A program made the translations under genes and the position numbers. A stretch of DNA of 64,000 bases from assembly GCF_022201045.2 (NCBI RefSeq), contig NC_068560.1, positions 21,283,501 to 21,347,500 on the forward strand, written 5' to 3'. Source of the stretch: Citrus sinensis (Eukaryota; Streptophyta; Magnoliopsida; Sapindales; Rutaceae). The number at the start of each line of letters is the position of its first letter. Positions within the stretch are counted from its first letter, which is position 1. Shown one piece after another: positions 3,617-31,897 of this stretch. The notes beneath the pieces are model-generated. The model ran no database searches and had not been told where the DNA came from. It saw only the letters and a program-made list of their open reading frames with translations.

Positions 3617-4940
3617 TGTTGTGAAAATTTTAATGTACTCGCAAGCGCACGAATCTAGAAATAGAGTAGTGGTAACGAGGTCGATCCCACATGGATTGTT
3701 ATAAATTGAAAAGTCTAATTTAAATCTAAAATTAATATTAATTCTAACCTAGTTGACCAAATTGAGTTTTAAGAGAAATTAAACTAATTAAACTAAGAAA
3801 ACAATTAAAGCAAATGAGAATTCAATGAGATAAAAATTACCAAGGTTTCGGAATCCACCACTATTCAACTAGTAATTATCTAATTATTAATTAATCCCCA
3901 ATTTTAGAGTGACAACTCGAAATCAATCTGTGTCATCTCATGGATATAACAATTAAGCCCAAGTGATTAAATCTAATGTAGGTTCTTTTTCTGCTTAATA
4001 ATATGACATCTAAGAATCTCATGTAAACACATTGAATAACAAAGAGTCAAAGTTTCCTAAGCACTCCATGTAAACAATTTAATGAAAGACATAAAATCAA
4101 AGATAATCATGTATAAACTTTATAGATCCAAGCATAGAATTAATCGAATATTAATCCTAACAATCAATAATGCATGACAGAATTGATGAAAAGATTTTAT
4201 TAACATCCAATTAATCATGTGAAATAAAAACCATAATCATCAAAGAACATATATAGGGAATTAATTAAATAAAAAGATAATTATTTTATTGAATAGGGTT
4301 TCATCCTTAACCTCAGTGTAAGAAAATTAGCTAAACATACTTGAATTGGGAGTAACACAAAAAATAAAATCAGCCATGGAAGCTGAAATATTGCTACTGC
4401 CGATTGCTCTCTTCCAGCCCTTGCGTCTGCACTCCCTTCTGGCGGCCACTCTAATTCAAAAGCAAAACCCCCTTTTATATTGCTTGGCCACCGAATCCTA
4501 TTGTGATTCTAATAACTAAACCAACTTTTACAAGCTAAAGCCCTAAGCTTGCCACGTAATTGAAAACAATAAAAGCCAAAAGCTATTGATTTCCTTCCTT
4601 TATTCTACTTTGACTTTCCATTCAAAGGCTTAATTAAGAGCTTTGTTTTTATGTGCTGCCCACTTTAGCTTTAACCTTCTTCTTTGTTTGCACGTGGATG
4701 GTGAATGCATTTGTTGAGTTCGGTTTTCTTGGCTTGAATTAACGTGCATATAAGCAGAATTGCTTCCAAGTTAATTAATCTTTAATGCTCACAAATTGAA
4801 CTCCTTTGTGCCCTTTTTATCCATAATCTCCAATTAATTCCCTATTCAATAAAATAATTCAATTAATTAAAAATAACAAATAAATATAACTAACAATTAT
4901 TTAATTAATGGTAAAATATGTATGTATTATATGCTCATCA
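3617..4940 (-). repeat. 5' LTR of the gypsy element (~1.32 kb)
   Basis: On the minus strand it starts TGATGAGCATATAATAC at 4940 and ends in ...CA next to the primer site. The outer border is sharp because copia coding sequence (codons for LLCDNIGA) stops exactly there. The inner border is uncertain by about 5 bp because several TG dinucleotides lie together near 3617. The partner LTR is outside the window, so age cannot be estimated. Confidence 0.8.
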
Positions 4941-6799
4941 GGCACCTATATTGTCACATAATAGACGAGGTGGCAGAGGGAGTTGGAGACGTACCTCACT
5001 GAGAAGATTTGTAATCCATGTAAGTTCGGCTACTGCTGAAGCAACTGAGCGGTATTCGGCTTCTGTAGAGGATCTAGCAATTGTCCGTTGTTTTTTAGAG
5101 CACCAAGAAATCGGGTTACCGCCAAGAAAAATGATATATGCTGATATTGATGTGCAATCATCTCGGTTTCCTGCCCAATCAGAATCAGAATAAGCTGTCA
5201 AGGTCAGTTGTCGATGACGGTGGAGATAAAGACCATACATAACAGTGTGTTTGAGATATCGGAGTAGCCGTTTTGCTGCTGTCCAATGAGTTTGACGCGG
5301 AGAGTGCATGTACTGGGCTAACTTATTGATTGCATAGGAAACATCAGGACGCGTGAGAGATAAATATTGCATTCCTCCAATTAAGCTGCGATATCGAGAG
5401 GCATCAACTGGGGGAGAGCCATCATTGAGGATGAGGTGAGTAGTGGAGCTAAGAGGAGTGGCTGTTTCTTTGATACTTTCCATGTTGAATCGAGCAAATA
5501 AGTCACGGATGTATTTCTGTTGAGAAAGAAATAATCCATTACTTGTGGGAATCACCTCTACACCCAAAAAGAAATTCAATGGCCCAAGGTCTTTGATTGA
5601 GAACTTGTGAGAGAGAGGAGTAATGACGGGGCGAATGAGAGTCATAGAGTTGCCGGTGATTAACAAGTCGTATACATAGACTAAAAAATAAACACGAATA
5701 GATTTGTTAGTATAAACAAATAAAGAAGAGTCTGAGTGACAGTTCACAAAACCTTGAGATAGAATAAAGTTCTTAAGCTCGGTGAACCAAGCGCGAGGAG
5801 CTTGTTTTAAGCCGTAAAGAGACTTCTGCAAGCGGCATACATGGTGAGGTCGGGAGGGGTCAATGAAACCGGGTGGCTGAGACATGAAAACTTTCTCATC
5901 AAGGTGACCATGAAGAAAGGCATTATTGACATCTAGTTGATTAATTGGCCAACCAGATGAGATTGCAATAGATAGAACAACTCGAATAGTTGTGGGTTTT
6001 ATCATTGGACTAAAAGTCTCAGTATAATCTAAACCAGGACGTTGATTGAATCCCTTGGCAACTAGACGAGCCTTATATCTAGCAACACTCCCATCAGGAT
6101 TTCGTTTGATTCGAAAAACCCATTTACAGCCAACCACATTGTGATGAGATTCTCGAGGCACTAGGACCCATGTTCCATTTTTGGCAAGAGCATGCAGCTC
6201 TTCACGCATAGCATTTGTCTACTCTTTCTGTTTAAGGGCTTGGGAGACAGAGGTGGGTTCTAGTGATAATGGTATAGGATGCTTTGTCGCAGTAAGGGTG
6301 AATATAGTTTTTGGCCTGAAAATATTATTTTTTGAGCGTGTTTGCATTGGATAAGAAGGATGTGGAGTGTTGGTGTTTTCAGTTGGATGAGAAGAATTAT
6401 TACCAGGGAGCGACTCATGGATGGAGGAGTTCGATAAAGTCTCGGGAGTGGTAGTCGGTAGAGATTGATCATCGACAAGCGGGATGTCACAAACTTGCAT
6501 GGGTTCATGAGTATTGGAATTTGGAGGGGATGGTTGTGTGGGGCTAGACGCAATTGATAAAGGTATATTTGGATTATGCATGGAGGTTGGTTCACGTGAA
6601 TCATGGGATTGACTATGAAAGGTGGTAGAAGTTGGGCCATTTGGAGTATTCATGGAAAAAGAATCACGTGAATTGGGGGGATGAGTAGGAAAGGTCCGAA
6701 ATTTAGGAATAGGAATATTGGGATCCTGGGGGATGGGCTGCCTGAGAGAATTTTCCAACCATACTTGTGTCTGATTTGCAATCCAGGCTTTGATACCAA
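4938..6799 (-). pseudogene. Ty1/copia pol: reverse transcriptase-RNase H, broken
   Basis: One minus-strand frame runs from just inside the primer-binding site (~6799) through a Ser/Pro/Asn-rich spacer into copia reverse transcriptase ([45 protein letters not shown]) and RNase H ([17 protein letters not shown]). Three lesions show it is dead: an in-frame TAG at 6219-6221 where the family has Trp (QKE[15 protein letters not shown]); YVYDLL in place of the catalytic YVDDLL; and loss of gag, protease and integrase, since the primer site is only ~40 bp from the spacer region. The 3' end is cut in RNase H (CDNIGA), where the TGA comes from the inserted gypsy LTR. Confidence 0.92.
6786..6799 (-). 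other. primer-binding site, initiator tRNA-Met type
   Basis: The minus strand reads TTGGTATCAAAGCC. It differs by one base from TTGGTATCAGAGCC, the usual copia site complementary to initiator tRNA-Met. It begins one base inside the LTR end at 6801. Confidence 0.8.
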
Positions 6800-6800
6800 T

Positions 6801-7008
6801 TGTAGTGTTTAAGAGTGACTAATTATCCAATCAACTCGAAACACTTCCCAAGATCACAATCAAACAAACAAGATGCACCAAGAATCAATCCAGTAGAATA
6901 CACAAGGAGTTTAGAACTAAAAAGAATTAAGAAAAGAACAAGAGTTAACGTGGTTCAGCTAACTTCAATCTAGCTTACATCCATGGGAGAAACAGAACCC
7001 AATTCTAT
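6801..7008 (-). repeat. copia 5' LTR, inner fragment
   Basis: R/U5 side of the LTR, next to the primer site, interrupted at 7008 by the MULE. The last nine bases, CAATTCTAT (7000-7008), are one copy of the MULE target-site duplication. The LTR resumes at 24674. Confidence 0.8.
7000..7008. repeat. MULE target-site duplication, left copy
   Basis: CAATTCTAT here and CAACTCTAT at 24665-24673 differ by one base and flank the inverted repeats directly. Nine base pairs is the classic Mutator superfamily length. Confidence 0.85.
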
Positions 7009-7085
7009 GGGTCATTCTATAATGCCGTAACTAAATTTACGGCATTGATGCCGTAATGGACGTGGACCGTTAGATTTGAATAAAA
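7009..7085 (+). repeat. MULE left terminal inverted repeat
   Basis: About 77 bp. It pairs with 24590-24664 through ATTCTATRATGCCGTAA and then GAACCGTTAGATT-type sequence (GGACCGTTAGATT here). The left copy carries an extra ~30 bp in which the GCCGTAA/TTACGGC motif is repeated as a small palindrome (7025-7054). Confidence 0.82.
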
Positions 7086-7139
7086 AATCTCTACCATTAA
7101 TTCTAAATAAATGGGTAACTTGTTACCTAAATAGCAGGT

Positions 7140-10100
7140 AATTACTCTTTTTTATTCAAGTTCCAGGTTATATTTACTAATTTTACGTGTGATTTACAAG
7201 TTTTATGAAACTTTTACAAGTTAATGTTGATTTACAAGTTTTATGCACCATTTACAAGTTTTTGTTTTGTTTACAAGTTCTTCATATAATTTACAACTCT
7301 AACATCAATTTACCTATTTTTTCATTAATTTACTAGTTTTATGTATGGTTTACATATTTTATGTTTTATTTCACACTTAATGTGAATTTACTAGTTCTAT
7401 GTCATTTTTCTACGTTTTTGTTTTGTTTACAAGTTCTTCATACAAATTACAACTCCAGCATTAATTTACTCATTTTTTCATCAATTTACTAGTTGTATGT
7501 GTGATTTACATATTTTTTGTTTTATTTCACATTTAATGTCAATTTACTAGTTCTATGTCATTTTTCTAAGTTTTTGTTTTGTTTACAAGTTCTTCATACA
7601 AATTACAACTCCAACATTAATTTACTCATTTTTCCATCAATTTACTAGTTTTATGTGTAATTTACACATTTTTTATTTTATTTCACAATTAATGTCAATT
7701 TACTAGTTCTATGTCATTTTTATAAGTTTTTGTTTTGTTTACAAGTTCTTCGTGCAAATTATAATTCCAACATTAATTTACTATTTTTTTTCATAAATTT
7801 ACTAGTTTTATGTGTGGTTTACATATTTTTTGTTTTATTTCACACTTAATGTGACTTTATTAGTTTCATATCATTTTTCTAAGTTTTTGTTTGGTTTGCA
7901 AGTTCTTCGTACAAATTACAACTCCAACATTAATTTACTCATTTTTCCATCAATTTACTAGTTTTATGTGTAATTTACACATTTTTTTGTCTTATTTCAC
8001 AATTAATGTGACTTTACTAGTTTTATATCATTTTTCTAAGTTTTTGTTTGGTTTACAAGTTCTTCGTACAAATTACAACTCCAACATTAATTTACTCATT
8101 TTTCCATCAATTTACTAGTTTTATGTGTGATTTACATATTTTTTGTTTTATTTCACACTTAATGTGACTTTACTAGTTCTATGTCATTTTTATAAGTTTT
8201 TATTTTGTTTACAAGTTCTTCGTACAAATTACAACTCCAACATTAATTTACTCATTTTTTCATCAATTTACTAGTTTTATGTGTGATTTACATATTTTTT
8301 GTTTTATTTCACAATTAATGTCAATTTACTAGTTCTATGTCATTTTTCTAAGTTTTTGTTTTGTTTACAAGTTCTTCGTACAAATTACAACTCCAACATT
8401 AATTTACTCATTTTCCCATCAATTTACTAGTTTTATGTGTGATTTACACATTTTTTATTTTATTTCACAATTAATGTCAATTTACTAGTTCTATGTCATT
8501 TTTATAAGTTTTTGTTTTGGTTACAAGTTCTTCGTGCAAATTATAATTCCAACATTAATTTACTATTTTTTTCATAAATTTACTAGTTTTATGTGTGGTT
8601 TACATATATTTTGTTTTATTTCACACCTAATGTGACTTTATTAGTTTTATATCATTTTTCTAAGTTTTTGTTTGGTTTGCAAGTTCTTCGTATAAATTAC
8701 AACTCCAACATTAATTTACTCATTTTTCCATCAATTTACTAGTTTTATGTGTAATTTACACATTTTTTTGTCTTATTTCACAATTAATGTGACTTTACTA
8801 GTTTTATATCATTTTTCTAAGTTTTTGTTTGGTTTACAAGTTCTTCGTACAAATTACAACTCCAACATTAATTTACTCATTTTTCCATCAATTTACTAGT
8901 TTTATGTGTAATTTATACATTTTTTGTCTTATTTCACAATTAATGTCAATTTACTAGTTCTATGTCATTTTTACAAGTTTTTGTTTGGTTTACAAGTTCT
9001 TCGTGCAAATTACAATTCCAACATTAATTTACCATTTTTTTCATTAATTTACTAGTTTTATGTGTAGCGTACATATTTTATGTTTTATTTCACACTTAAT
9101 GTGAATTTACTAGTTCTATGTCATTTTTCTAAGTTTTTGTTTTGTTTACAAGTTTTTCGTACAAATTACAACTCTAACATTAATTTACTCATTGTTCCAT
9201 CAATTTACTAGTTTTATGTGTAATTTACACATTTTTTGTTTTATTTCACAATTAATGTCAATTTACAAGTTCTATGTCATTTTTATAAGTTTTTGTTTGG
9301 TTTACAAGTTCTTCGTATAAATTACAACTCCAGCATTAATTTACTCATTTTTCCATAAATTTACTAGTTTTATGTGTGATTTACACATTTTTTGTTTTAT
9401 TTCACAATTAATGTCAATTTACTAGTTCTATGTCATTTTGATAAGTTTTTGTTTTGTTGACAAGTTTTTCGTGCAAATTACAATTCGAACATTAATTTAT
9501 CATTTTTTTCATTAATTTACGAGTTTTATGTGTGATTTACATATTTTTTGTTTTATTTCACACTTAATGTGAATTTACTAGTTTTATGTCCTTTTTCTAA
9601 GTTTTTGTTTTGTTTACAAGTTCTTCGTACAAATTACAACTCAACATTAATTTACTCATTTTTCCATCAATTTACTAGTTTTATGTGTGATTTATACATT
9701 TTTTGTTTTATTTCACAATTAATGTGAATTCACTAGTTCTCTGTCATTTTTATAAGTTTTTATTTTGTTTACAAGTTCTTCGTGCAAATTACAATTCCAA
9801 CATTAATTTACCATTTTTTTTCGTAAATTTACTAGTTTTATGTGTGGTTTACATATTTTTTGTTTTATTTCACACTTAATGTGACTTTACTAGTTCTATA
9901 TCATTTTTCTAAGTTTTTGTTTTGTTTACAAGTTCTTCATACAAATTACAACTCCAACATTAATTTACTCATTTTTCCATCAATTTACTAGTTTTATGTG
10001 TGATTTACACATTTTTTGTTTTATTTCACACTTAATGTCAATTTACTAGTTCTATGTTATTTTTATAAGTTTTTGTTTTGTTTACAAGTTCTTCGTGCAA

Positions 10101-10930
10101 ATTACAATTCCAATACTAATTTTCCATTTTTTCAATAATTTACGAGTTTTATGTGTGGTTTACATATTTTATGTTTTATTTCACACTTAATGTGAATTTA
10201 CTAGTTCTATGTCATTTTTCTAAGTTTTTGTTTTGTTTATAAGTTTTTCGTGCAAATTACAATTCCAATATTAATTTACGAGTTTTATGTGTGGTTTACA
10301 TATTTTATGTTTTATTTCATACTTAATGTGAATTTACTAGGTCTATGTCATTTTTCTAAGTTTTTGTTTTGTTTACAAGTTCTTCATACAAATTACAACG
10401 CCAACATTAATTTACTCATTTTTCCATCAATTTACTAGTTTTATGTGTGATTTACACATTTTTTATTTTATTTCACAATTAATGTCAATTTACTAGTTCT
10501 ATGTCATTTTTATAAGTTTTTGTTTTGTTTACAAGTTCTTTGTGCAAATTACAATTCCAACATTAATTTACCATTTTTTTTCATTAATTTACGAGTTTTA
10601 TGTGTAGTGTACATATTTTATGTTTTATTTCACAATTAATGTGAATTTACTAGTTCTATGTCATTTTTATAAGTTTTTATTTTGTTTACAAGTTATTCGT
10701 GCAATTTACAATTCCAACATTAATTTACCATTTTTTCATTAATTTACTAGTTTTATGTGTGGTTTACATATTTTTTATTTTATTTCACACTTAATGTGAA
10801 TTTACAAGTTCTATCTCATTTTTCTAAATTTTTGTTTTGTTTACAAGTTCTTCGTACAAATTACAACTCCAATATTAATTTACTACATTTTCTATAAATT
10901 TACTAGTTTTTTTCTATTTTTTAATTTTTT
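7140..10930 (+). repeat. 156-bp higher-order tandem repeat array, ~24 copies
   Basis: The landmark ACAAGTTCTTCG/A recurs at about 7429, 7585, 7741, 7898, 8055, 8211, 8367 and 8523, a period of 156-157 bp, and continues to about 10850. Each unit is itself made of ~20-26-bp variants beginning TTTAC (TTTACAAGTT, TTTACTCATT, TTTACTAGTT). At the left edge (7178-7330) these short monomers run without the 156-bp order. The array has no coding capacity; frames within it are chance. Such subterminal repeats are common in MULEs. Confidence 0.93.
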
Positions 10931-11840
10931 AAATTTTGTAGACCAATTTACCACTCTAACGCTAATTTATCCGTTTTACCTTCAATCTACGAGTCATACG
11001 TGTGGTTTAGAAATTTTTTGTCTTATTTCACATTTGTTTGGAATTTAGGTTATTTAGTTTAAGTCAATTGCCTCAACTTAAATCCAACGTGAAAATGATT
11101 AAGGAGTTGGATTATTGGCATTTTATGATTTAGATAGAATGATATAAGGGTGGGCATGAGTTGGGTTTGATAGGGTTAGTGAAATTATAACTTGGTCTAC
11201 TTTTTAATGAGCTGAGATAAAATTCATCCAACTTAACTAAATAAACTTATTTAACCCAATTCTACCCAAACCTTATATCGTCTGGTTAAGTTGATTAGGT
11301 TGAAGGTCAAATCAAAAATTTAAATTGAACAATGAAAATGATATGAAACTTGAAATGAAACTTATTAAAATCAAATATAAATATTTTATAACATGAAATT
11401 TTCATTCACTATCTAGTGTACGTAAAGAAAGTTAATAAATTAACTATCTTTAAATTAAGAAAATTTTCACAAAAAAATAAAAAAACTTTTTAGACTTTAT
11501 TTCTCCTGCATCTCCTTTTCCAATTCCAAATTAGGACTTTTTAGATAATTAGCTAGCATCATATACAAAAATAAAATGAAAGTGATATATAATTATGTGC
11601 CGTTAAGTATTCACTAAAAAAATTAAAAAAATTAAAACCAACTTACTTTTATATTAATCTTATAAAATAATAAATTTACTTATAAGAGAGTGTGATTTTG
11701 GTTTTGGAATTGTAGTCTAGAGCAGCAGATGCAAGAATGAAATAGCCTCTTGTATTAAAAGATTAAAAAGAATAAAAAATTAGATAAGCCATTTAAGTCT
11801 TTATAATTTTGCAATTGAGAATTAACACATTATCATTATC

Positions 11841-11871
<31 letters not shown>

Positions 11872-12700
11872 TTATTATTATAGATTTGGTTGGGTTAGAC
11901 TGGTTAATTATAATTTATCCAACCCAAAGTAATTATTAATTAGGTTTGAAAAAAACAGACCCAATTAAACCACAATAATCTGCTCATGGTGCATTTACTA
12001 ATCAGTAATCGGAACGAGCTACAATCAGAATCAAGAATGTGAATAAGAATAAGTTATTTATTTGAGCTGTAGAAATTGAAGTTGGAATGAGATTTATTTC
12101 CATCGATGTGTTTAATTTGTCTTGAAATCAGAATGAATTATCATAATTTCTTAAATGCCCTTTGTTGATTATTGTCAATTGGTGGTAATAATAATAATAA
12201 TCATCATCATCATCATCATATTTATTAAAATAGTATTATAATTATGATTACTAATTCATTATTGTTATTATTTATTAATTTCATGATTTTGTTTTATGAT
12301 TATTATTTATGAAAATATTATTGTAATCAAACTTTATAATAATTATTATAATAATAAGTTATTAGTATTAATATTTTATTATATTATTATTTCATAAAAA
12401 TATTATTATATTTATAATTTTATTGTTATTATTATCAGTATGAAATTATTTCATTATTATTTATTATAATATTATTATAATTATAATTCATTATAATTTA
12501 TTAATATTTTATTATTTATTTATTTATTTAATATTACCTAATTAAAATTTATAATAATTAATTAAAATATTTTTATGGTTATTATTTATTAAAAAAATTC
12601 AATATTATAACAATTATGGCACCATCAACAGCAAAAAAGTTAAAAAAAAACTTTTTTTTATATTATCTATTTTTTCTCCTTTTTTAAAAATAAAAGGCGG
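10931..12700. other. AT-rich spacer inside the MULE
   Basis: No gene is visible. It contains simple repeats: (TTC)n near 11840-11870 followed by (TTA)n, (AAT)n/(ATC)n near 12187-12220, and a very AT-rich ATTATT tract from 12220 to 12600. Confidence 0.6.
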
Positions 12701-13846
12701 AAAAAAAAACATTTCCCATTGAGTCTCAACGTCACTGTAGAAGAAAAAAAATCAAAACAAAGAGCACCGCCCTATCCGCCCTTAATGTTCATTTCCAAAT
12801 GTGAATTTTTGTCTCAAATCTCCAAAATTTTAAGCCAAGATTCACCAAATCCGAACCCGAATCCGCTGGCACGTGAACCGTGAAACCGTCGATCACAATC
12901 CAAATAGTTGGGAATGCAGATTGTCGAAGAGATGAGATGCAGATTGCCTTTCAGATTCTGGTGATGGTAAGGCTGTGGAAGAAACCAAGAAGAGCACCAA
13001 AAGCATCCGCTAGTTTTAACCCTGAAACTGTCTTCCAACTCCAAAACTTTGCAGATCGGTTTGGCGCGCATCGCGCGAGGTAAGCAATCTGGAAAATCAT
13101 TTTAGATCTGGTAAGATCTGGTCCTAATATTTGCAAGCAAGTAGCTGAGGGTTTTCTGCCACTTTTTTCTGCCCCCTTACTTTTCTCACCCTTTCGCTTC
13201 TAGTAAGGCTCGGAGATACTGATCATGTGGCTTCTAAGCTAGATGAAAGGGGATTTTAGTGGCAAGCTTGTGATTGAGTAGAATACCTGTTAGAAGATGC
13301 AGTGAGGAACTGCCTTGTGGTGCCAGGGCCCACCGTCCAGGCCTGATGAGGAGACTGGTAAGTTGTCATTGTCGTTGAGGTTTTATTTGAGGGAGTATGT
13401 AAGAATTTTTAAATCCAATAAGATGAAAGTAAAAACATGCACAAATGAATTCCGTAAATAAGGATGTTGTGCCTCTGGAGTTTATCCTGATTTGTGTAAG
13501 AGGTCCTATCAACACAGAGGGGCTTGTAAGAGATTTGCGATCTGCTACAAATGGCAGTTGTAATAGGTCAGGCTTTTCTCCTAAGTTCCATTGTAATGCC
13601 TTTTATATATAGTTTTGTATGGATCAAGGTGAAGTGAAATAGGAGTTTATATCAATTTTCCAGCTTTTCTGAAAATACATTATTTGAAGGAGGATGGTCA
13701 TAATAGAAAAGCTGGCATTCAGTATTAGGAAAAAATTTATTCCAGAGTCAAGAGGCTAAAAAGGACTTAAATATTGAAAATATGATGCTCCTTCATATTC
13801 AGTAATCTTTAATTTTCTTTGATTCATTTCAATTCCAATTTGGCAG
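12701..13846 (+). other. GC-richer block, possible captured host sequence of unknown origin
   Basis: Base composition rises sharply relative to the AT-rich spacer. A plausible donor site (GCGCGAG/GTAAGC) lies at ~13080 and another (GAGACTG/GTAAGTTG) at ~13362, as if 5' exons of a plus-strand transcript precede the zeaxanthin epoxidase exon. The short frames (e.g. 12880-13083) resemble nothing I recognise. It may be promoter and untranslated-exon sequence captured with the host fragment, or sequence from a second gene. Confidence 0.35.
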
Positions 13847-14058
13847 GTGTAAAGGAAAGGTTGCTGAAAATATTTGAGGGTTGGTGTGATAATGTGATAG
13901 ATTTGATGCTTGCTACAGACGACGAAGCCATTCTTCGACGTGACATATATGACCGGACACCTACCTTCACGTGGGGAAGGAGTCGTGTTACTTTGCTTGG
14001 AGACTTGGTCCATGCTATGCAACCAAATATGGGCCAAGGGGGTTGCATGGCCATTGAG
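13847..14058 (+). pseudogene. ZEP: zeaxanthin epoxidase exon captured by the MULE
   Basis: A 212-bp exon bounded by TTGGCAG/ and /GTACAC splice sites encodes VKERLLKIFEGWCDNVIDL..., RRDIYDRTPTFTWG, LLGDLVHAMQPNMGQGGCMA. This is the conserved FAD-monooxygenase segment of zeaxanthin epoxidase, the plastid enzyme that converts zeaxanthin to violaxanthin; the GD...P motif binds the FAD ribose. The frame is open and close to the plant consensus, with Leu where the family has Ser (LLGDSVHAMQ in the usual protein). No other exon of the gene is recognisable nearby, so this is a fragment, apparently copied as genomic DNA because intron ends are retained. Orientation is opposite to the MULE's own genes. 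Confidence 0.92.
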
Positions 14059-14938
14059 GTACACTTTTTTTTTTTTTGATGCCTCTCCATCCCCGTTAGA
14101 GACTATTCACTTCACGGGAATCATATATATTAAATCCTTGGTTACTTTTAGCTCACTCTGAGCATATATATCCTGTTATGGTATAATGCAAAATGATTTT
14201 TTAAAATAACCATTTTCTATGTCTGTTCTTTCTTTTAATTCCATGCATGTGTCAACCCTGTAAGTTATAACTGTTTAAACATGTTTCTTCGTGTGAGCAT
14301 ATATGTTAGACCTATAACTTCACAAGTGAATTCCTGTTGAGATGGAAATGCTTAATGAATACCTTCTCTTGATGAGTCTTTAAGACAGATCATCGTCTGT
14401 TTAGAAATCTCCATTATTTATTTATTTATTTATTTTGGGTGGTTATTTTATTGTTTGTCATTAATTTCAAGTAATATTGCTTATCTCTTGTATATCTATT
14501 GGGATTATCCTATGGATACGTAAATTCATATGCTTATCACATAGGTTGTGGATTCTGAAGTTTCTAATGCTTATCACGTAGGATGAACAAATTTCTTTTA
14601 ATGCTTTCTTTTGGAATAACTTGAAATAGTCCAAGTTGCATCTCATGTTCAAAATGAATGAATTATTATTGTTTTAATATGTAAGAACCTTAAGCCTGAG
14701 AGGTGTAATATTTCATTATTATTATAACAAAAAATGCATTAAAATATAAGACTACATCACATGGCCATAACTATAGTCTAAAAAATACTTGGTCAAAATT
14801 GTGTTTTCTTAAAATGCAAATAGCTTGTCCAAATCCACACCCTCAGGCATATGCAGATTATTTTAGGATAATTTTGTGTGCATTGACGCAAGTGAGGCAG
14901 CCTCCTTAGGATATAATCTGCAGAAAATTTGAACAAAA
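14059..14938. other. intron-like and unassigned MULE sequence
   Basis: The first part follows the donor site of the captured exon and probably derives from the host intron (T-rich, 14062-14081). The rest shows no gene or repeat I can name. Confidence 0.4.
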
Positions 14939-16460
14939 TTATTGATACAACACATTGATTTGGACTAAAAAAAAATTATAGAAATAATGACCTATTTTCC
15001 CATACCAAATAAATTTTGTGAAGCTGTTTAATGGTCCAGCGAAGTTGTCCACACTTGTAACATGGCCGTTCTTACTTGGGCATTTCCGTGCAGTATGTCC
15101 ATCTTGTTTGCAATATCCACATTTTCTTGTGTTAACACCTTTGTTAAATTTCGTACTGGGTGCACCCTTTGTCTTCACAACTAGAGGATCTTTTACAATT
15201 CTTGCTTTCTTTTCTGCACTGCATGGTCTATCTGTATCTCCGTTGTCACACATTCTCAACTCCTTTATCTCACTCTTCAGTTGAGCAAAGATGATCCACT
15301 TACAAAAGAAATCTGGATCCATGTCAGCTTTTGCATTTAAGTATGCAAGTGCAGCTTCTGAGTCTGTTTCGAGTATCATGGATCTACGTTCATTATCTAA
15401 ATTGTTATATAAATCCTTTAATCCGAAGCCCAAATTGTCATAACCCCCAGCCTGGTTGACAAAGAAGTCCATAATCTGACTTGTCTTTATACCAAATGTT
15501 TGCATTGAATTAGCTAGAGCATTGTCAGAATCTTTAACCATTCGATGAGATCGAAGAAATTGAGTCTCAAAATCTGCTGCCAACTCATGAGAGTGTTTCG
15601 GAACAAAGCTTCTAGCAACCCAAGTTTTGGACTCCTTATCTAAATTTACCCTGAATGCTGCTCGACAGTTGACTCTTGTAATAGCTCTAGGTTCACGGAT
15701 TCTGTTTGTATGCTCAATATACTTTTTATCCCTTTCACCTTCTCTACTGCAAACCCAATGTTTCATTATGGGTGCACCATTTGTATCACGTCTCCCATCA
15801 TAAATGCGAACACTAAAACCCATTATTTTTGAGTATTTTTTATAAAAATCTGTAGCTTCTTCAAGTGATGCAAATCGCTTTCCAATAACGTCTTCAGCAG
15901 TAAGTTCATACATGCTTTTATCATCCCAATAAATAGAGTTTGAACCATCCTTCCCTGTCATAATAGAGTATGAATAATTATTTTTTTTATCATGAATAGC
16001 TAACTTCAATTGATACTATTATTTTATTATTGACAACTAAAATAGTCTAATTCTATTATTTTATTATCAACAACTAAAATAAACTGATACTGTTATTTGA
16101 TTTTCAAAATATTACAAAAATAATTTGGTTCAATTGTTTTGTTATGAACAACTAAAAAACCTGATTGTATTCCTGCTTGAGCTGTTGAAGGAATATCATA
16201 TGATGATGGAACATCAAGCTCTGGCACTTTGTAATTTTTGTTAATGCCTGTCATAATACAATAAGAAAATATTACAATAAGTGAAATGGCACTGCTAGAC
16301 AATAGCCTGTAAATTATAATAGACACAATTAATATTAATTTTAAAAGGTTAAAAAACACTACTCTTTTTAGAAAGAGAGAAAATAACATAAAAAATAATA
16401 GCAAAGAGTAACAAATCATTAAAAGACAATGAAGAATTAACCTTGTTGATCATCATTCAT
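14939..16460 (-). pseudogene. FAR1/MURA-family protein: FAR1 DNA-binding domain joined to zinc knuckle, transposase core deleted
   Basis: Exons by splice sites and phase: 16460-16442 (MNDDQQ), 16247-16161, 15954 to at least ~15010. The N-terminal half is a FAR1 DNA-binding domain: F-SLEEATDFYKKYSKIMGFSVR, W-VCSREGERD, NCRAAFRVNLD, with conserved Cys and His residues, followed by the helical linker of MULE transposases (MDFFVNQAGGYDNLGF, LNAKADMDPDFFCK). There the DDE transposase and SWIM domains should follow, but the frame jumps to a C-terminal tail with a CCHC zinc knuckle (CGYCKQDGHTARKC). The frame is open across the junction, so a ~350-residue DNA-binding product could be made, but it cannot catalyse transposition. 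Same strand as the Ulp1-like gene. Confidence 0.85.
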
Positions 16461-16510
16461 TGTGTTCTATGTGGTCGTTAGAAAAAACTGGGCAAGGAAA
16501 TTGTAGGATT

Positions 16511-16915
16511 GAATGGAACTATTGAATTAGGAAAAGACGTATTCTGGACAAGTTGCAATAGTTTTTATTATGGCTAATTTCAAATTAGTACCCATTAAGT
16601 CTTTAAATTTGAATGGAACTATTGAATTAGGAAAAGACGTATTCTGGACAAGTTGCAATAGTTTTTATTATGGCTAATTTCAAATTAGTACCCATTAAGT
16701 CTTTAAATTTGAATGGAACTATTGAATTAGGAAAAGACGTATTCTGGACAAGTTGCAATAGTTTTTATTATGGCTAATTTCAAATTAGTACCCATTAAGT
16801 CTTTAAATTTGAATGGAACTATTGAATTAGGAAAAGACGTATTCTGGACAAGTTGCAAAAGTTGTTAATATGGCAAATTTCAAACTAGTCCCCATTAAGT
16901 ATTCAAATTCTGTCG
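16511..16915. repeat. 100-bp tandem repeat, four copies
   Basis: Copies start at 16511, 16611, 16711 and 16811, an exact 100-bp period. The first three are identical as far as I can read; the fourth diverges in its second half, and a further partial copy follows to about 16975. It lies just upstream of the FAR1-type gene. Its function is unknown; the identity implies recent expansion or gene conversion. Confidence 0.95.
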
Positions 16916-16975
16916 TTTCTAGACAAGTTGCAAAAGTTTTAATATGGCTAATTTCAAATTAGTCCCCACTAAGTC

Positions 16976-18913
16976 AAAATATTACAAATAACCCCATTTA
17001 TTTTAAAAATACTCATCCAGCCCCAGAAGTATAAAGTCAGCCTTAATTATGTTTTGCCTGTTGAGTATTATTGTAAGTGTCAAAATATTAACAATGTCCC
17101 TAAATAAATCGATTACTACTGTGGTTGTAATTTTAGAATTATAATTTTTTCCCGTTTTGCCTCTAGTTTCTCTTATAATGTTCTAAAAATTATTTGTTGC
17201 AAAATAATGTGTCGTGTTCATGTCCGTAGGAGTTATATTAGGTCTTATTTTTCTAGCTAGGTTACTATTATGCTTGTAATTTAATTTTTCTAAATAATTA
17301 GATCATTATCATGCTATCGCAGCAAGTTTGGACAGTCATGATGGTTGTGTAAAACCTCAACTATTTTTTATTATTGACTGGGCCTTGCTTGCTTCTTGTT
17401 TTTCAATTTTGGCAGTGATGGTAGTAAAAGCTTTTGGAGTTTTGGAGTGAATAGAAGACGTGCATTCGTGCAATACTCTTGAGCAACCCTAGCACTTTTT
17501 GGCAGCAAACATATGCATCCATGTAATTTTTTTTTTCTAAAGGGACAAAACTACCCCGACTTATTCGCTATATAATCAGAACAAATCCAAGATTTTGAGG
17601 GAGTAATGATGAGTTTTACCCCGGGGCCAATCTGTGCCACAAAAACCAACTACTTGGTTGTTCGGATATTGTCTGGTTATCGTTTATAGATTCTTGATGT
17701 GGGCATGAGATGAATTCTGATACCTGCATAACAAATACATGCGATTGACAGTGGCCAGTTCAAATTGGGGGTCCTTTTAATTTTATTTTCTTCTGAGTCC
17801 CACTTGGAATCTATCAAATATCCCCTCCACGAAAGTTCCTCGGTTCCCCCAGTATTATTAAATTACTATATATTAAATATACGACACACAAAGACACAGT
17901 TGATCTCAAGTCTCCACCACATATATTATTGTTGAAAGGGAAAATATTTCTAATATGCGTTGATTTGATGTGCCACTTTTTTTTTATTTAGATTTATCTA
18001 AAAAGACAAAATCATTTGAAAGGCAAATTCAAGGCCACTAGACCTAAGAAGCTTTAACAGACACATAACTTCACAATTTGACAAATGAATGGCTTTAAAT
18101 GTTCCTTCAAGGCATACTACATATATTTATTCGTGTATGATCTTTCACAAGCAAACTTTAAGTTCTGCACAAAGATTGTACATCTAACTTGTTTTCTTTA
18201 TTTTGGTCTTGTTTAAACTGTTTCAATTGAAGAAGAGTGACTTGGCTTTTGTTGTTTTTTGTTGCCAAGAACATGCAGTGAGGAAAGAAAAGTTGAAAAT
18301 TCTTGCTTCGTAGAATCTTTAGCATGCAAAGTTCCGGTAGCTCAATTAATTGCTTTCTAGAGTTTCTCACAAACTATATGTTTCACTTTCTCTCTATGGT
18401 AAAGAACTGCTCTAATATAGAGAAGTTTACATGAATTCCCATTTGGTAAAATCGGAACTCTTGTACACTGCAGTTTTTCCAACACTGTGATGATGGTACA
18501 TGTGATTGCGATGAATTAATCAACCTTAATTCCAGATTATAATTTGTTAATTGCTTCAGTTTCTGGAAGCTAAAGTGAAAGTATTCTAAAGGAACTATCG
18601 TTACTACTGCTCCCCAACAAAGATGATCCACTTTCCCACAAGATGTCACTGAAGAGGAAATTGTGAGCCACCTGGAGAATAAAGGAAAACTTGCAGTAAA
18701 ACATTGACTATTTCCAGTCCACATTCTGCTTATACTCGGTAGGCAATTGCAAATTGGAAATTGTTTCTAATTAATTTTATGTGAAACAACAATTATAATT
18801 GCAATAACTAATAAATAACTAATACAAATCATGAAATGTAATAGGAGAAAAAAAAAGCAAGAAAAAAACAGTTAAAGAGAACTTACTTTTAATATGCTGC
18901 ATGCTTTTGGACT
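16976..18913. other. unassigned MULE interior
   Basis: Almost 2 kb between the FAR1-type and Ulp1-type genes. The largest frame (18383-18724, minus) resembles no protein I know and lacks gene-like composition. No inverted or direct repeat stands out. Confidence 0.4.
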
Positions 18914-21900
18914 CTACTTTTTCTTCTTCAAATTCTTTTGACCATTAACTTTGTTCGTCACTTTGTTCGGTGGAAGATTATTCTTGTGCGAATCATGAAA
19001 TTCTTCAGCCTTACATCTGATACTATCTCTCACTTTATTTGTATCTCCGTTGACAAGGTGGAGTGCAATGCGATATGACAAGGTGGAGTGCAATGCGATA
19101 TCTTTCTATTGTTGAGTTATACTAAATATAGTACGAGAAAAAATAAAAAAGTGAGAAACAGAGTCATCATTCATTGTAAAACTTTTAATCAATATGATAT
19201 AAAATTAATGTCACATACATGTTTTATAGATAATAGATCACATTGCGTCTCCATGAACTTGATCACAAACAAACCGCAGTCAGTTCCATTTGGTTGTACT
19301 GAGACATTATCTAGATATAAAATTTTAAAACTAAAAAAATCTCAACATGAATGAAAATTTCCCAAAAAATCATCGAGGAAAACTTCGTCGAGTCCCTGTA
19401 ACTGTGATAATGATGATAATAGTCAGCATACATTTGCATTTATTGGTAATAATACAGGTGAAATGCAAGCTTCACTTACAATTGCTCTAACAATTTCCTC
19501 TCGATGTGAATTCGAACTATTACTAGGTAAAGAGTCCCAATTTTCAACGGTTTGCGTTTTAACAATCAACACCGCCAGATACCAATGTGCAAAGCCATCA
19601 TTTATAGGAACATAGATCTACCTGACAAATGCATAATTTTTAATAATTACCATTAAATGTCTTAAACAATGCCATGATTTATTGTAATTTTGTATTTAAT
19701 TTCTTACCTTTTCACATACTGCAAGTTCTGACATGTACTTATCTCGAATATTATGATTTTTGACAAAGTCTTCGATGCTTGATTTCTTTTTAGAGTCCAT
19801 GTTTGCCACTATTTTTTGCTGCAAAACTCATAAAATAAATACAAAATTAGTATATTATCAACATATAGGGTCAACTGTCAGTAAACAAATTCATAGTATA
19901 ACATTTACAACTTACCGAAAATATGGTGGGCAAATACCAAATACGCATCTCTAGGCTCGTTTTTGCACGTTCTTTGTTTGTCAAGTAGTTGACGAAACAA
20001 TCTATGACCTACGAATAGAGCCATTAAACAAGAAGACTTAAATACTTAGAAAGAAAATAAATAAATTGAATGATTAAACTAAATATAAGGAAGGTATGCT
20101 TACTGTGTCAATGATCCAAGTATTAGGAGCCAAAGAAAACATCTCTTGGCGAGAGACGAAAAAACTAATTCCATCAACAATATGCTCACTGTATTAAGAA
20201 TCCAAAAATAGAATTAAAACTATAACAGTGTTAATGCAAAAATAATAACATATGGAAAATGGGTCATGCGAAAATCCAATTACTCCATAGGCAATTCTCC
20301 TTGAAATATATATTGCAGCAACTTCATATCTTCCTCTGAAAATGAATTTAGTAGAGTGATTGAATCATGAAAAAAATTTTGTTTGCTTCGTCTTTTGGGA
20401 AACTGATTATAAGGGGATTTTTGGTATGGACCAGGCTTTCGCTTTCGGGAGCGCATATCTTTAACCTCAAATACACTAAGTTGGTTTGATGATTCCTCTT
20501 CAATAGAACAATCATCATTCCGGCCATTATCCTACAAAAATTATGATTTATAACTTAATACTCATCTATGCACTATTATGTTTTACTTGTGCAAAAAAGA
20601 AGATCGTCGTTTATTGCTAAATACCTGTATAGCTGCATTGTAGAAAATTTGCTTACGCTTTCCCTCATTTAGGTCTGACTCGCCCGTCAAAATTCTCTCA
20701 TCATGTTTCTCTTCAACATTCTCCTCATCCAGTAATTTCTTCTCAAGAATATCATCTCCATCTGGCCTTTCTTTGGCTCTCTTCATTAGTTCCGCAAAAG
20801 TTAAAATTTCATGGCTTGATTCATCGTTCTTTTGTTGCTTTCAGGAAGGAGAAGTAATTCCAATAGCAGCGCCATTATTCTCCTTTTGCTGCTCAACTTG
20901 CTTTTGTGTTAAGTTCTCTTTAAAGGTTTCCATTACTTGTTGCATTTGCTGCATCCAGCTACCCATTGAATGCTTTAAACCATCAAGCTCCAATGCCATA
21001 CGGCCAATATCTTTTCGAACAAGTGATAATTCCTTTTGATGTTGACAATTATGTATGCATTCTTCATTCTTCCGACTTGTTCCATCAAATGTTTCCTGGG
21101 CCGTGTTTTGTTGAGGATGGATTTCTCGCAAATTAACCTAATAAATACCACATATTATTAAATACATGTCATTTCAATATGATACGTTAATATTTAATTA
21201 ATAAAAAGTAGATGTCATACCTTTGAGCTCCCATAACCGCCATTTTTCTTAACAAAACTCAATAAGTTAGTTACATCTCGATTTGTCCATGTTGTTATTG
21301 GACTCAAAGATTTATCAATAAATTTTCGTGCAAATGATATAGAATCCATGTAAAAAAGCTACAATATTAACAAAATGATCAAAACAAAGCAAAAAAAAAA
21401 AAACACAATAAAACTGATGAAATTATTTTTAAAAAAAATTATTACCTCCAAAAATAGTACACAACCATTAACAACTTTATGTTGTCCTGCCTTGAACTTT
21501 TGTATGCCCTCAACTAGCCCTTTAAAAGCCCACGTTGCCCAATTTTTTTTATTTATGGCACTGGTGTCTTTCAAAAAAACCAAGTAATACGGGGCTAAAT
21601 TCAACCCTGATTTAGGAAAAATAATTGTAGCTAGAGCAAACAAAACAAAGCTTCTTTTAAAGTCATCATTCACCTCCCTTTGATTCACCAATTTTGACTC
21701 TAAAGTTTTCAGCTTAATGTATCCACTGTCATCACAATATTCATTCCTCAATTTATCTATATCATCAATACCAAGATCCACATCAATGTCGACTCCACCA
21801 TCTTTTATTCCTATAATGTACTCAAAATCTCGAGGCGACAAACTGATACTCTTACCATGCAAAAAAATACATGAAGTAAATGGATCAAAATTTTGAACCA

Positions 21901-22547
21901 ACCATGAACATAAATCTCGTTTCAGTCGACCACATTTTATGTGCAGAAGACTTTCAAATCCTAACTCCACAACAGCTTTTTTTTATTTTCTGACAATTTT
22001 GTGACCAGTTTTGCAAAACGATCTGGAGCGCATCTAGTTTCCATGGCTTTTTGAGTTCCCTTCACAAAATCATCTTCTTTGTCTTTATTCTGTGCTATAT
22101 CACTACCAACCATTCTAACTTTAGCCTTCTCTTCTTCACTCAAATTTTTGAAACATTTCCCTAATTTAATTCTATCCTAAAAAATTAAAAAAAAATATGA
22201 CAATAAGTTATTGCTTGTAACACGTCCCAAATTTAATGGAAATTAATTATCGCACCTACACTCACCACTTTTTTTCCTTGTTCCCGTAATATTTTTGCTT
22301 CTTGCTTGCTGCAGTCAATTAAATATTTTGAAAAAAATATATATAATCAGTGCATGTTAACATTATTGTGCTTGGCTTTACTAAATACTCATAAATTTAC
22401 CAATAGTCAAACACATAATATTTAATTTAAGAAGACTTACAAATACTCAATGAAAGGTCGATTTCTTCTTGAAATTTCATTTTCCTGGCTCACATTATCA
22501 TTCTCCTTGAAATCATTCTCGTTACCCTCATCTACATTTTCAGCCAT
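18914..22547 (-). pseudogene. Ulp1-like SUMO protease (peptidase C48) gene, 13 exons, two lesions
   Basis: Exons: 22547-22441, 22308-22266, 22176-21446, 21358-21221, 21137-20625, 20531-20284, 20188-20104, 20008-19916, 19818-19708, 19617-19480, 19401-19347, 19310-19219, 19105-18914. Every junction keeps phase except within exon 3, which is 731 nt where a multiple of 3 is required; the break is at an A8 run (~21978). A second lesion is an in-frame TGA at 20841-20843. The product (~848 codons) has a plant transposon-type domain (LGFESLLHIKCGRLKRDL, PRDFEYIIGIKDGG; DUF1985-like from memory), a coiled, charged middle, and a C48 protease domain with all catalytic residues: His in GFAHWYLAV, Asp in ENWDSL, Gln and Cys in QPNGTDCGLFV. 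Such proteases cleave SUMO from targets; transposon-borne copies are known but their role is unclear. Confidence 0.9.
19052..19101. repeat. 25-bp tandem duplication in the last Ulp1-like exon
   Basis: The 25-mer beginning GACAAGGTGGAGTGC occurs twice back to back (19052-19076 and 19077-19101). The exon stays open through both copies but reads the first in a different phase, giving an altered peptide at the exon start before YRIALHLVNGD. Confidence 0.9.
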
Positions 22548-22619
22548 TTTCGAGTTTACAAGAACCTGTACATGAAGATATTAGGCACAAAAAGAAATGG
22601 GAAATATCACAAGTTTTGG

Positions 22620-23290
22620 ATCCTGTAAAACAACAGAAAATTTAACCCAAAAACAGTAATAAATTTATCCAAAAAGAACAAAAAATTTAACTGAAAAATA
22701 GAAGGAAATTTAACCAAAAACAGCAGAAAATTTAACCCAAAATAAGCAGCAAATGAAGCCCAAAACACCAAAAAAATTTAACCAAAAACGGCAACAAATC
22801 ATCTCAAATACAACAGAAAAATAAACTAAAAAATAGCAACCAATTAACCCAGAAACAACAAAAAATTTAACCTAAAAACAGCACCAAATGAAGCCCAAAA
22901 CACCAAAAAAATTTAACCAAAAAGGGCAGCAAATCATCCCAAATACAGCAGAAACTTTATCCAAAACACACCAGAAAAATTTAACTGAAAAACAGCAGTA
23001 TATTTACCCAGAAACAGCAAAATATTTAACCCAGAACCAGCAACAAATGAAGCCCAAAACACCAGAAAAATTTACCTGCAAATAGCAGAAAATATAACAA
23101 AAAAACAGCAGTAAATTTATCTAAAAACAGCAAAAAAATAAACTGAGAAACAGCAGCCAATTAACCCAAAAACGCAAAAATTTAACCTAAAAACAGCACC
23201 AAATGAAGCCCAAAACACCAGAAAAATTTAACCAAAAACAGCAGCAAATCATCCAAAATACAGCAGAAAATTTGCCTAGAAACAAAAGCA
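22620..23290 (-). repeat. second MULE tandem array, ~25-bp monomers with ~156-bp order
   Basis: Monomers of the type AACAGCAGAAAATTTAACCC repeat throughout. A longer landmark, AAATGAAGCCCAAAACACCA, recurs at 22751, 22886, 23045 and 23201, spaced 135, 159 and 156 bp. It lies just upstream of the Ulp1-like gene. Confidence 0.85.
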
Positions 23291-24584
23291 TTTCAAACCC
23301 AAAATTTTTCTGCAACTTCACATAATTCTCTATCACTTCAATTATATTTGAGACAAAAACCCACTTCCAGTTTCAGAATTATGATCCATTACCTTTAATT
23401 TATCTACTTGTGTCTGATGTATATTTCATTTATTTATTATCCTCATCCATACATCCATCCATGATCCACCACACATTTGTTTATCAACCAAAATCAATGC
23501 AAACAATAATACAAAATCAAGGTCACAACAATTAGCATAACTCATATAGCACTCTATATTGTTCACCCAAAAAAAAATTGATGGCCAATCAAAATCGAAG
23601 AAAAAAAAAAGAAAAAACAAAACAATAATAATAATAATAATAACTGTGAAGAGGAAAGTGGGTCACAAACACATGCTGCGTTCAGGCAATGCCATGTGCC
23701 CACATGCTTCAATAGAAAAGAAAAATAATAATAAAAAAAATGTTTGCATACTCTTCGCTTCCTTCCTATTGAGAAATTTTGACAAGCAAATTCTCGTAGA
23801 GAAATAATAACTCCAACAACAGCAACAAGTTATAACAACTGAATATCATCAACAGGAAGAAGAAGAAGAAAGAGGAGGAGGGAGTGATTTGAACAGAAGC
23901 ATCCTTGAAAGAAAGAATGAAAGAAAGCAGTGATGGGTTCGTGAGAGCAGATCAGATTGATCTGAAAAGCTTAGATAAGCAACTGGAGAGGCATCTAAAC
24001 AGAGTATTGAATATGGAAAGCTTCTGCTAATGCCACTGCTACTGCTATTGGCAAAGCTTCTAATTTTCTCAAGAGGCAAAGGCAGGAGTGCACTGGAACT
24101 TCTTAATTCCGTGAACAAATGCGGAAATTATGACTATGAAATAAAACTATGCAAACCCAAACACTTGCAGCGACTTCTTAATTCTTAGATTCAATGCCGT
24201 GAACAAATTATGACCATGAAAGAAAACTAAAATGCTTAGCAATTCGAACGAGATAGAGGATTAAATTTACCTTGCACAGGTGACGACGGCCAAACCAAGA
24301 TAGAGGCAGCAACAGCAGAGACTCAGCAATTCGAACAAGATAGAAAATCAAGACAGAAAATCAACTCAAGAATGGCTGCAATCTGTAGACGTATGAGAGG
24401 TTTCTTTAGGAATTCGTTAATTAGGGTTTAATGAAAAATATGAACGGAAGTTTCCCTTTCTAATTTTTTATTTCTTTAAAAGGTAAATCCTCTTTTTTTT
24501 TTCCTTTAAACTTACACCGGTCAAATTTTATCTTTAAAAAGTACTTAACCGGCTTATAACCGGTTAGATTTAATTTAATTAAAA
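23291..24584 (-). other. MULE right interior, probable promoter and leader of the Ulp1-like gene
   Basis: No protein gene is convincing; frames at 23849-24118 are low-complexity Ser-rich chance frames. A donor-like site on the minus strand (TGTGCAAG/GTAAATTT at ~24271) suggests a spliced 5' leader transcribed from near the right inverted repeat towards the gene at 22547. Confidence 0.35.
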
Positions 24585-24589
24585 ATTTT

Positions 24590-24664
24590 ATTATTTCATA
24601 ATTATTGTGAATCGTTGATTTAATCTAACGGTTCATAATAATTACGGCATCATAGAATTTTCCC
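24590..24664 (-). repeat. MULE right terminal inverted repeat
   Basis: The reverse complement begins GGGAAAATTCTATGATGCC and continues with GAACCGTTAGATTAAAT, matching the left end. Confidence 0.85.
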
Positions 24665-24673
24665 CAACTCTAT
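24665..24673. repeat. MULE target-site duplication, right copy
   Basis: CAACTCTAT, one mismatch from the left copy at 7000-7008; the copia LTR resumes immediately after it. Confidence 0.85.
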
Positions 24674-31345: not shown

Positions 31346-31897
31346 GAGATATTAGACGGCCGTAGTTCAGTAATAAGAAAATCTGAATATTAAATGAATT
31401 AGTCTGGCTATTGATATTCATCAAATTTCTGAAACTGGGTCATCAATTTGTTTTTCATTGTAATCCAGCGAAGGAAAAAAAAAAGTAATAATAAATAAAG
31501 TTTGGTAGATAAATCAAAAGAAAATCATATAATAATATTCCATGTGATTGGATTAATTGTTTCAGTTGGTTTCACTGCCTTCGATTTCTCTCTTACATCC
31601 CAATTTTCTTTGTACCAATCACTTCTTTATTTTTGGAAATCAAAATCTTAGAAGAAAGAAGAATTACTGCCAAGAGCATATAATAAATCTTCACGTTCAT
31701 AGATGCATAAAATTAGATCACCAAAATCACACTAAAAGTTAACTGGACAACTGAAACAATAAGCAACATAGCTATAATTTGGAAATCCAGGAGAGAAATA
31801 ATTTTCTTGCAAGCTAAAATAAATTTCCTATATTAGCCAGGATGGCAGTCAGCATCACACAATAAAAGAACCCAATTGGACAACAAGTAACTACTTG

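Follow-up and report, generated by a model that had tools for sequence, protein, structure and literature searches.

The window analysed here is a 64,000-nucleotide stretch of a Citrus sinensis contig (NC_068560.1, positions 21,283,501 to 21,347,500), in which a single insert extends from position 7009 to approximately 24664 and interrupts an LTR (Table 1). As the initial annotation proposed, the insert is one Mutator-like element (MULE) that combines FAR1-type, Ulp1-type and captured host sequences; its ends recur across the host genome (300 Mb, 11 contigs). Ten sister elements with parsed ends range from 5.7 to 22.8 kb and have modules in common.

Table 1. Features of the insert and its immediate flanks (window coordinates)
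Feature	Position	Strand	Evidence or match
Target-site duplication, left	7000..7008		CAATTCTAT
Left terminal region	7009..7171	+	Starts GGGTCATTCTATAATGCCGTAA; genome matches 90-100%
Left subterminal array, 156-bp unit	7172..10910		TRF
Family sequence with simple AT-rich repeats; part of it resembles other genomic repeats at 71-80%	10950..13386		Genome comparison
Zeaxanthin-epoxidase-like gene fragment, one exon (~13847-14058) and parts of flanking introns	13385..14459	+	96% to C7:3650094-3651168
Family sequence, also in sisters C6_7.28 and C3_26.6	14462..14569		94-95%
Piece resembling a repeated part of the gene cluster at C1:18.49-18.80 Mb	14555..14699		81-92% to 9 places there; in four sisters
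Remnant of a FAR1-type transposase (open frame of 358 aa; core lost at 15294/15298)	14939..16015	-	PF03101, 7e-18
100-bp tandem repeat, 4 copies	16509..16909		TRF
Three collinear pieces of C2:31298145-31299888	17443..18589	+	94, 95 and 99%
Ulp1-type (C48) gene of 12 exons, here a pseudogene	18914..22547	-	Sister model and comparison
Right array, 23/45-bp unit, directly upstream of the Ulp1-type gene	22627..23273		TRF
Captured piece of C3:2956875-2957477	23569..24090	+	85% and 93%; in four sisters
Right terminal region	24300..24664	-	365-bp end matched in genome
Target-site duplication, right	24665..24673		CAACTCTAT

The gene initially described as SUMO-protease-like is indeed of the Ulp1 type but is broken in this copy: the region, 98% identical to that of a sister, contains four lesions, namely one frameshift, two stops and a 25-bp duplication. 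The sister model is open and encodes 855 aa in 12 exons, with a C48 domain (PF02902, 4.1e-20); an alignment of the protein to yeast ULP1 (1euv) at E=1.3e-10 matches H, D, Q and C, and the intact protein is likely to be a cysteine protease. A C48/Ulp1 gene between the ends, the hallmark of ULP-carrying MULEs, is thus present here, though not intact. The dN/dS ratios are in the range of 0.35 to 0.69 over ten pairs, that is, below 1, which led us to consider selection on this gene, yet introns as a yardstick give no backing: for the full-length pairs, dN is 0.010, 0.024 and 0.020, versus intron divergence of 0.017, 0.023 and 0.017, respectively. Because the intron yardstick fails to support it, we do not claim selection; so measured, constraint appears doubtful, with little or none apparent. 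Stops are found in 4 of the 5 copies.

Two repeat arrays had been recognised in the element; the arrays are real, but three are conspicuous, with units of 156 bp, 100 bp (four copies) and 23/45 bp. AT-rich simple repeats also occur at ~12200-12600. The 156-bp left array consists of 5 to 34 full units per element (n=14 elements). The left array is present in 14/14 elements and the right one in 12/14, with or without genes, and the array units turn over within elements. This distribution invites comparison with the VANC/KIU anti-silencing MULEs: VANC proteins bind non-coding tandem arrays of VANDAL elements (PMC5735166, PMC10398659), Arabidopsis VANDALs possess Ulp1-bearing KIU genes (PMC13317346), and the second protein of such elements combines DUF1985 with DUF287 (PMC5735166). 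By analogy, the Ulp1-type gene and the arrays might constitute an anti-silencing pair that acts in trans on array-bearing copies, and the widespread arrays, independent of gene content and with their units turning over, would fit such a role. However, in the 855-aa sister model, neither DUF1985 nor any other Pfam match besides C48 was detected at E<=1, and membership of the protein in the DUF1985/VANC group was accordingly dropped; the single-sequence structure model of the N-terminal exon is too poor to use (mean pLDDT 35.3); arrays located near the ends would outlast internal deletions anyway; and there is the doubtful constraint on the gene. We therefore regard such a pair as unlikely.

The FAR1-type protein was at first taken to be transposase-less. 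The 358-aa frame of this copy indeed contains a FAR1 domain, and a Pfam search of it found no MULE domain (PF10551), but it is the deletion product of a transposase. The 22.8-kb sister, with identical ends and module order, encodes an open 746-aa FAR1-MULE transposase (MULE PF10551, 9.4e-27; FAR1, 6.8e-18), and because this sister has a 407-aa core at the same place, the short protein is best described as an internally deleted transposase: the core is missing in frame between DPDFFCK and AQLKSEI, where 4 residues stand instead, and the alignment to the sister breaks at this site. A complete transposase is present in only 1 of the 14 elements examined. Jittery/FAR1-type MULEs typically combine an N-terminal FAR1 domain with a C-terminal SWIM or CCHC motif (PMC6446971). 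The sister transposase has this layout, with the CCHC visible by eye, although the C-terminal SWIM (0.066) and zinc knuckle (0.11) matches are below the cut-off. Some FAR1-type proteins lack a transposase core, and the short protein, with its open, frame-preserving deletion, could in principle be a co-opted regulator of this kind, maintained by selection, rather than a remnant. This is highly improbable, however, given that the deletion was found in a single copy among 14 elements and the core is in place in the sister; moreover, one in three deletions keeps the frame by chance, and an open frame is to be expected in a young copy anyway.

The carotenoid-gene exon noted previously is confirmed as cargo, but is not the sole capture: host sequence in the element derives from at least 4 places, namely a zeaxanthin-epoxidase-like gene on C7, loci on C2 and C3, and a gene cluster on C1. 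The C7 and C2 captures are found in this copy only, and those from C3 and C1 are common to sisters. The C7 fragment (1.07 kb, 96%), identified by tools as coming from an FAD monooxygenase gene that we take to be zeaxanthin epoxidase (ZEP), retains intron sequence; no report of a captured ZEP in a Mutator-like element was found in the literature searched, which was covered in part. The C3 donor is presumably a Raf-like kinase locus, and a 127-aa antisense ORF of the C2 locus gave no Pfam hit at E<=0.1. Other sisters contain a P450 fragment in which ~120 bp of the donor are missing, a gap that presumably falls within coding sequence, judging from P450 alignments. Since the P450 and C2 pieces lack some donor segments, a retro-processed, intron-less origin was considered; it is ruled out for the ZEP-like piece by the retained intron sequence.

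The borders of the element had been placed by inverted repeats, a 9-bp duplication with one mismatch and the continuity of the LTR upon removal of the insert, and these borders are confirmed. The duplication, mostly of 9 bp in MULEs, is here CAATTCTAT/CAACTCTAT (8/9 identical, one mismatch) or, should the element terminate in TTTTCC like its sisters, CCAATTCTAT/CCAACTCTAT (9/10), which shifts the right edge from 24664 to 24663, an uncertainty of 1 bp. Among 11 script-parsed elements, judged by eye, 6 have duplications of at least 8/9, 3 have AT-rich, out-of-register ones, and 2 have unlike flanks. The terminal inverted repeats (left, GGGTCATTCTATAATGCCGTAA; right, inverted, GGGGAAAATTCTATGATGCCGTAA) are short and degenerate, and the pair by itself is only modestly above chance: of 2000 segments of 200 bp drawn at random from the window, 2 scored equally high under loose gapped scoring. 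A genome search with a 15-bp end pattern gave 71 exact matches, whereas the reversed control gave 0; for the 163-bp left end there are at least 40 genome matches, own copy counted (40 of 95 first-look candidates scored), and for the 365-bp right end at least 52 matched pieces genome-wide (40 of 41 candidates scored). Both ends are matched in all 13 sisters fetched, although in one of these the outermost 12 bp at the left are missing. It is this recurrence of paired ends in the family, rather than the weak inverted-repeat match, that is decisive. The window contains no second LTR copy, so the restored LTR had until now been an inference. When the flanks were joined with one copy of the duplication (401 bp) and used as a query, at least 24 genomic LTR copies matched without a break from position 1 to 399 or 401, at 81-96% identity, among the 40 of 103 genomic candidates scored; one further copy matched positions 5-395, another 8 aligned less closely (70-75%) across at least 365 bp, and 8 pairs of matches lie ~4.6 kb apart, a spacing expected of two LTRs in one element. 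Neither ends belonging to different elements nor an empty LTR unlike the flanks was seen. A composite of at least two nested or adjacent transposons mimicking one element, which the short, degenerate repeats and the patchwork middle might suggest, is highly improbable, being largely refuted by the rejoining of the flanks; the pairing of the ends also speaks against it, as does sister C3_30.2, in which the same two ends enclose the left array, the transposase, the Ulp1-type gene and the right array, arranged as here.

Pack-MULEs are by definition without transposase sequence, so the citrus element, with its 358-aa transposase remnant, differs from them. The likeness lies in host genomic fragments, including introns, between MULE ends, some of them amplified (PMC13317346, PMC2528002). 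In grapevine, Jitvine-1/-2 and Mutavine resemble the citrus element in their 9-bp duplications, where found, and in host exons with introns inside one MULE family, and no TIRs are listed for Jitvine; some Jittery-like families bear ULP sequence, Jittery-like MULEs measure 11.9 and 14.4 kb, and lengths of 16.2 and 17.7 kb are attained by MuDR-like families (PMC2528002). Given these elements, and sisters of up to 22.8 kb with common modules, the supposedly unusual combination and size are not exceptional. Large subterminal arrays and several captures per element, as in citrus, are not described for the grapevine families in the sections consulted (PMC2528002). CitMule of Citrus clementina is similar in its Jittery-related FAR1 + MULE + SWIM transposase, 9-bp duplications, short degenerate TIRs (17 bp at 100%, 34 bp at 88%, 65 bp at 78%) and near-identical copies, some with unlike flanks; compared by description only, it differs in being ~6.9 kb long with a protein of 795-805 aa, and the text of the paper contains neither 'ulp' nor 'captured' (PMC4334395). 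An Ulp1-domain gene is also carried by Kaonashi (KI-MULE/KIU), VANDAL, melon and rice ULP1 MULEs, in melon by Jittery-like elements as well; KI-MULEs, however, have a mudrA-type transposase and a reversed ULP gene, whereas the citrus genes are FAR1-type and in the same orientation (PMC13317346, PMC2528002), and the citrus Ulp1-type model, unlike the Kaonashi and VANDAL types, has no DUF1985 match. Mosaic MULE families like the one to which the citrus element belongs have already been described in other plants; no earlier description of the element itself was found in the literature searched, again covered in part.

Taken together, we are confident that the element is a non-autonomous, multi-capture, Pack-MULE-like derivative of a Jittery/FAR1-type, ULP-carrying Mutator-like family. 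Ends and arrays are common to many copies, and an open transposase frame and an open spliced Ulp1-type model are preserved in a sister; this copy has lost the transposase core, its Ulp1-type gene has decayed, host sequence was captured at the DNA level, introns included, and the whole was inserted into the LTR as one unit with a 9-bp duplication. Mobilisation would have occurred in trans, with a full-length transposase expressed from another genomic site recognising the ends and inserting the element into the LTR. The host pieces and internal deletions may have arisen by copying from other loci during break repair inside the element, because the donor pieces are discontinuous and collinear and their joins have short overlaps or filler. 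Because elements that lack the Ulp1-type gene are bounded by the same ends, this gene is probably dispensable in cis. Two elements, located at C4:5.96 and C4:6.25 Mb, are identical over 4352 bp and 99.9% identical over 1941 bp, which points to recent movement, although this pair could also be a product of recombination or assembly.

Here, one transposon contains pieces of several unlinked host loci, and with donors, junctions and sisters all in one assembly, it becomes possible to read in which order capture, deletion and amplification took place. Because copies with and without the Ulp1-type gene have ends and arrays in common, the family also lends itself to addressing the role of the widespread, unexplained Ulp1-type protease in plant MULEs. 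As a long shot, this FAR1-type MULE family might have evolved its own VANC-like self-recognition, with the N-terminal part of the Ulp1-type protein targeting the fast-changing subterminal arrays; if so, gene-capturing, array-bearing copies would stay mobile despite their dead coding genes.

The MULE in the window belongs to a family and is not a singleton, and the middle of the family's elements is a mosaic. The window corresponds to C5:21283501-21347500 of the source genome (299.7 Mb, 11 contigs). Scanning this genome with the 15-bp end pattern gives 71 exact hits vs none for the reversed control; the left end has at least 40 matches (40 of 95 candidates scored) and the right end at least 52 matched pieces (40 of 41 candidates scored). 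Besides the window element, the matches listed comprise 17 left-right end pairs and two right ends without a partner. The left end, the left array and the right end are present in all 13 sisters fetched from these pairs (a non-random choice, made partly by place), which bears out the pairing of the two terminal repeats in the initial annotation; the right array is present in 11 of the 13, and the ten sisters with parsed ends span 5.7 to 22.8 kb. The earlier claim of one MULE inserted in an LTR likewise holds: the flanks, which carry the duplication copies CAATTCTAT and CAACTCTAT, when joined at one copy match 24 other genomic copies unbroken (best 96%), along with weaker ones. A second copy of the interrupted LTR was not found within the 64-kb window.

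Features of the window element and its relatives, with module counts for 14 elements (13 fetched sisters and the window copy); bare numbers are window positions
Feature	Position	Strand	Donor or match	Identity or score	Elements of 14
MULE (window copy)	7009 to 24663/24664				
Copia-type reverse transcriptase, near the interrupted LTR	4938-6218	-	PF07727	1.1e-68	
Piece 1 (ZEP-like)	13385-14459		C7:3650094-3651168	96% (1042/1080 aligned), introns included	1 (window copy)
Piece 2 (C2 locus)	17443-18589		C2:31298145-31299888	three collinear pieces, 94, 95, 99%	1 (window copy)
Piece 3 (C3 locus)	23569-24090		C3:2957002-2957477; 2956875-2956945 (both minus strand)	85%; 93%	4
Piece 4 (C1 cluster)	14555-14699		nine places in C1:18.49-18.80 Mb	81-92%	4
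Sister C3_30.2	C3:30200767 to ~30223583				
Transposase					complete in 1, parts in 5
Ulp1-type region					complete in 3, parts in 5
P450 (at least 85% of fragment)					6, absent from window copy

The two elements on contig C4 (5.96 and 6.25 Mb) are identical over 4352 bp, which suggests recent movement of the family unless the pair is a product of recombination or assembly.

Several further features of individual loci were recorded. The two C4 sisters (L046-L047 at 5.96 Mb and L044-L045 at 6.25 Mb) are near-identical and inverted, with unlike left and right flanks, TGAATTGCA being the left flank of one and the right flank of the other; the element at 6.25 Mb includes a run of N of about 5 kb. 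In sister L058-L059 (C8:22.17-22.19 Mb), a run of three long ORFs (553, 366 and 438 aa) looks by eye like a copia-type element inserted close to the right end of that sister, and a 183-aa ORF in sister L053-L054 (C2:22.49-22.50 Mb), with a Transpos_assoc match just under the cut-off (2.7e-05), suggests a CACTA-type insertion. Within the window, the region 28000-52000 contains, among others, the repeats 31589-33811 / 43099-45314 (85%) and 31939-33811 / 49442-51289 (90%). Short ORFs in it encode a MATH domain (PF22486, 2e-17), and the region is probably a decaying MATH gene cluster.

The protein initially annotated as a transposase-less FAR1 protein does lack the core, but it is the remnant of an internally deleted transposase. 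In sister C3_30.2, one uninterrupted frame encodes 746 aa with FAR1 (6.8e-18) and MULE (9.4e-27) domains, and a CCHC motif can be made out by eye at the C-terminus. In the window copy this protein is short of 407 residues, with 4 others standing there instead, and is therefore an in-frame internal deletion product, the DNA alignment breaking at 15294/15298. An N-terminal FAR1 domain with a C-terminal SWIM or CCHC motif is the layout given for the Jittery sub-group of dicots and monocots in the sections of PMC6446971 covered here.

The SUMO-protease-like (Ulp1-type) gene is present as annotated but broken in the window copy: a single deletion breaks the reading frame, two stops lie in frame, and the last exon contains a tandem duplication of 25 bp. 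Stops and frame breaks occur in the other three copies compared as well, and the C3_30.2 gene, spliced by hand, is stop-free (12 exons, 855 aa). The C-terminal part matches Peptidase_C48 (4.1e-20) and yeast ULP1 (1.3e-10), the alignment to the latter including all four catalytic residues (H, D, Q and C). There is no Pfam hit at E<=1 in the first 600 residues, and the single-sequence model of one N-terminal exon is too poor to use (mean pLDDT 35.3). The dN/dS ratios are in the range of 0.35 to 0.69 (ten pairs among five copies; 13-29 synonymous changes per pair). Constraint on this gene is not established because dN in the three full-length pairs (0.010, 0.024 and 0.020) is close to the divergence of the introns (0.017, 0.023 and 0.017, respectively).

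The reported carotenoid-gene exon proved to be a gene piece with intron sequence kept; the donor continues into further exons, probably of zeaxanthin epoxidase (ZEP), and tools return FAD-dependent monooxygenase with no finer call. This piece joins the element with a 2-nt overlap on the left and a few nt of filler on the right. The C2 piece skips 315 and 256 bp of the donor, with overlaps of 12 and 4 nt at the joins, values taken from BLAST ends and possibly overstated. Both pieces were found in the window copy only, and therefore either arrived late or were lost or missed in other copies. The C3-locus piece, from what is presumably a Raf-like kinase gene, and the C1-cluster piece were amplified along with the family, each occurring in four sisters; in the former, a stretch of 62 bp in one sister corresponds in position to 56 bp of the donor, and the remaining copies have nothing there. 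A P450 fragment (PF00067, 4.6e-15) is present in other sisters; its best non-family match is C1:15192576-15193549 (93-96%).

Transposase from a complete relative probably moved the window element, and the host pieces probably entered through copying during break repair within it. The Ulp1-type gene is probably dispensable in cis, given that elements without it share the same ends.

The left array comprises 5-34 full 156-bp units per element (223 in total over the 14 elements, one of which is cut by a run of N). Mean unit identity is 0.927 within vs 0.902 between elements, and the closest relative lies in the same element for 50% of the units vs 9% (maximum 16%) in 500 label shuffles, a pattern of turnover as expected of tandem repeats. 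The array is similar to those targeted by VANC in VANDAL elements, as presented in the portions of PMC5735166 and PMC10398659 considered, whereas DUF1985 was not found in the Ulp1-type protein at E<=1. Arrays near the ends would outlast internal deletions even without function. A 2.2-kb array at G000:C8:6248641-6250836, with no family ends nearby among the matches listed, shows about 70% similarity to the right array of the family and possibly represents a diverged sister family.

The initial view that the combination and size are unusual is not supported. According to the relevant parts of PMC2528002, Jittery-like MULEs in grapevine measure 11.9 and 14.4 kb, some Jittery-like families there contain ULP sequence, as do MULEs in melon, MuDR-like families extend to 16.2 kb in a case with ULP and to 17.7 kb in another, and one MULE family includes both exon and intron sequence of the host. 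In clementine, CitMule combines FAR1, MULE and SWIM within 6.9 kb and has weak TIRs and 9-bp duplications (PMC4334395, in part). Thus, elements of this type are already known, and the window element holds more captures than the grapevine and clementine examples compared, as far as these are described in the same excerpts.
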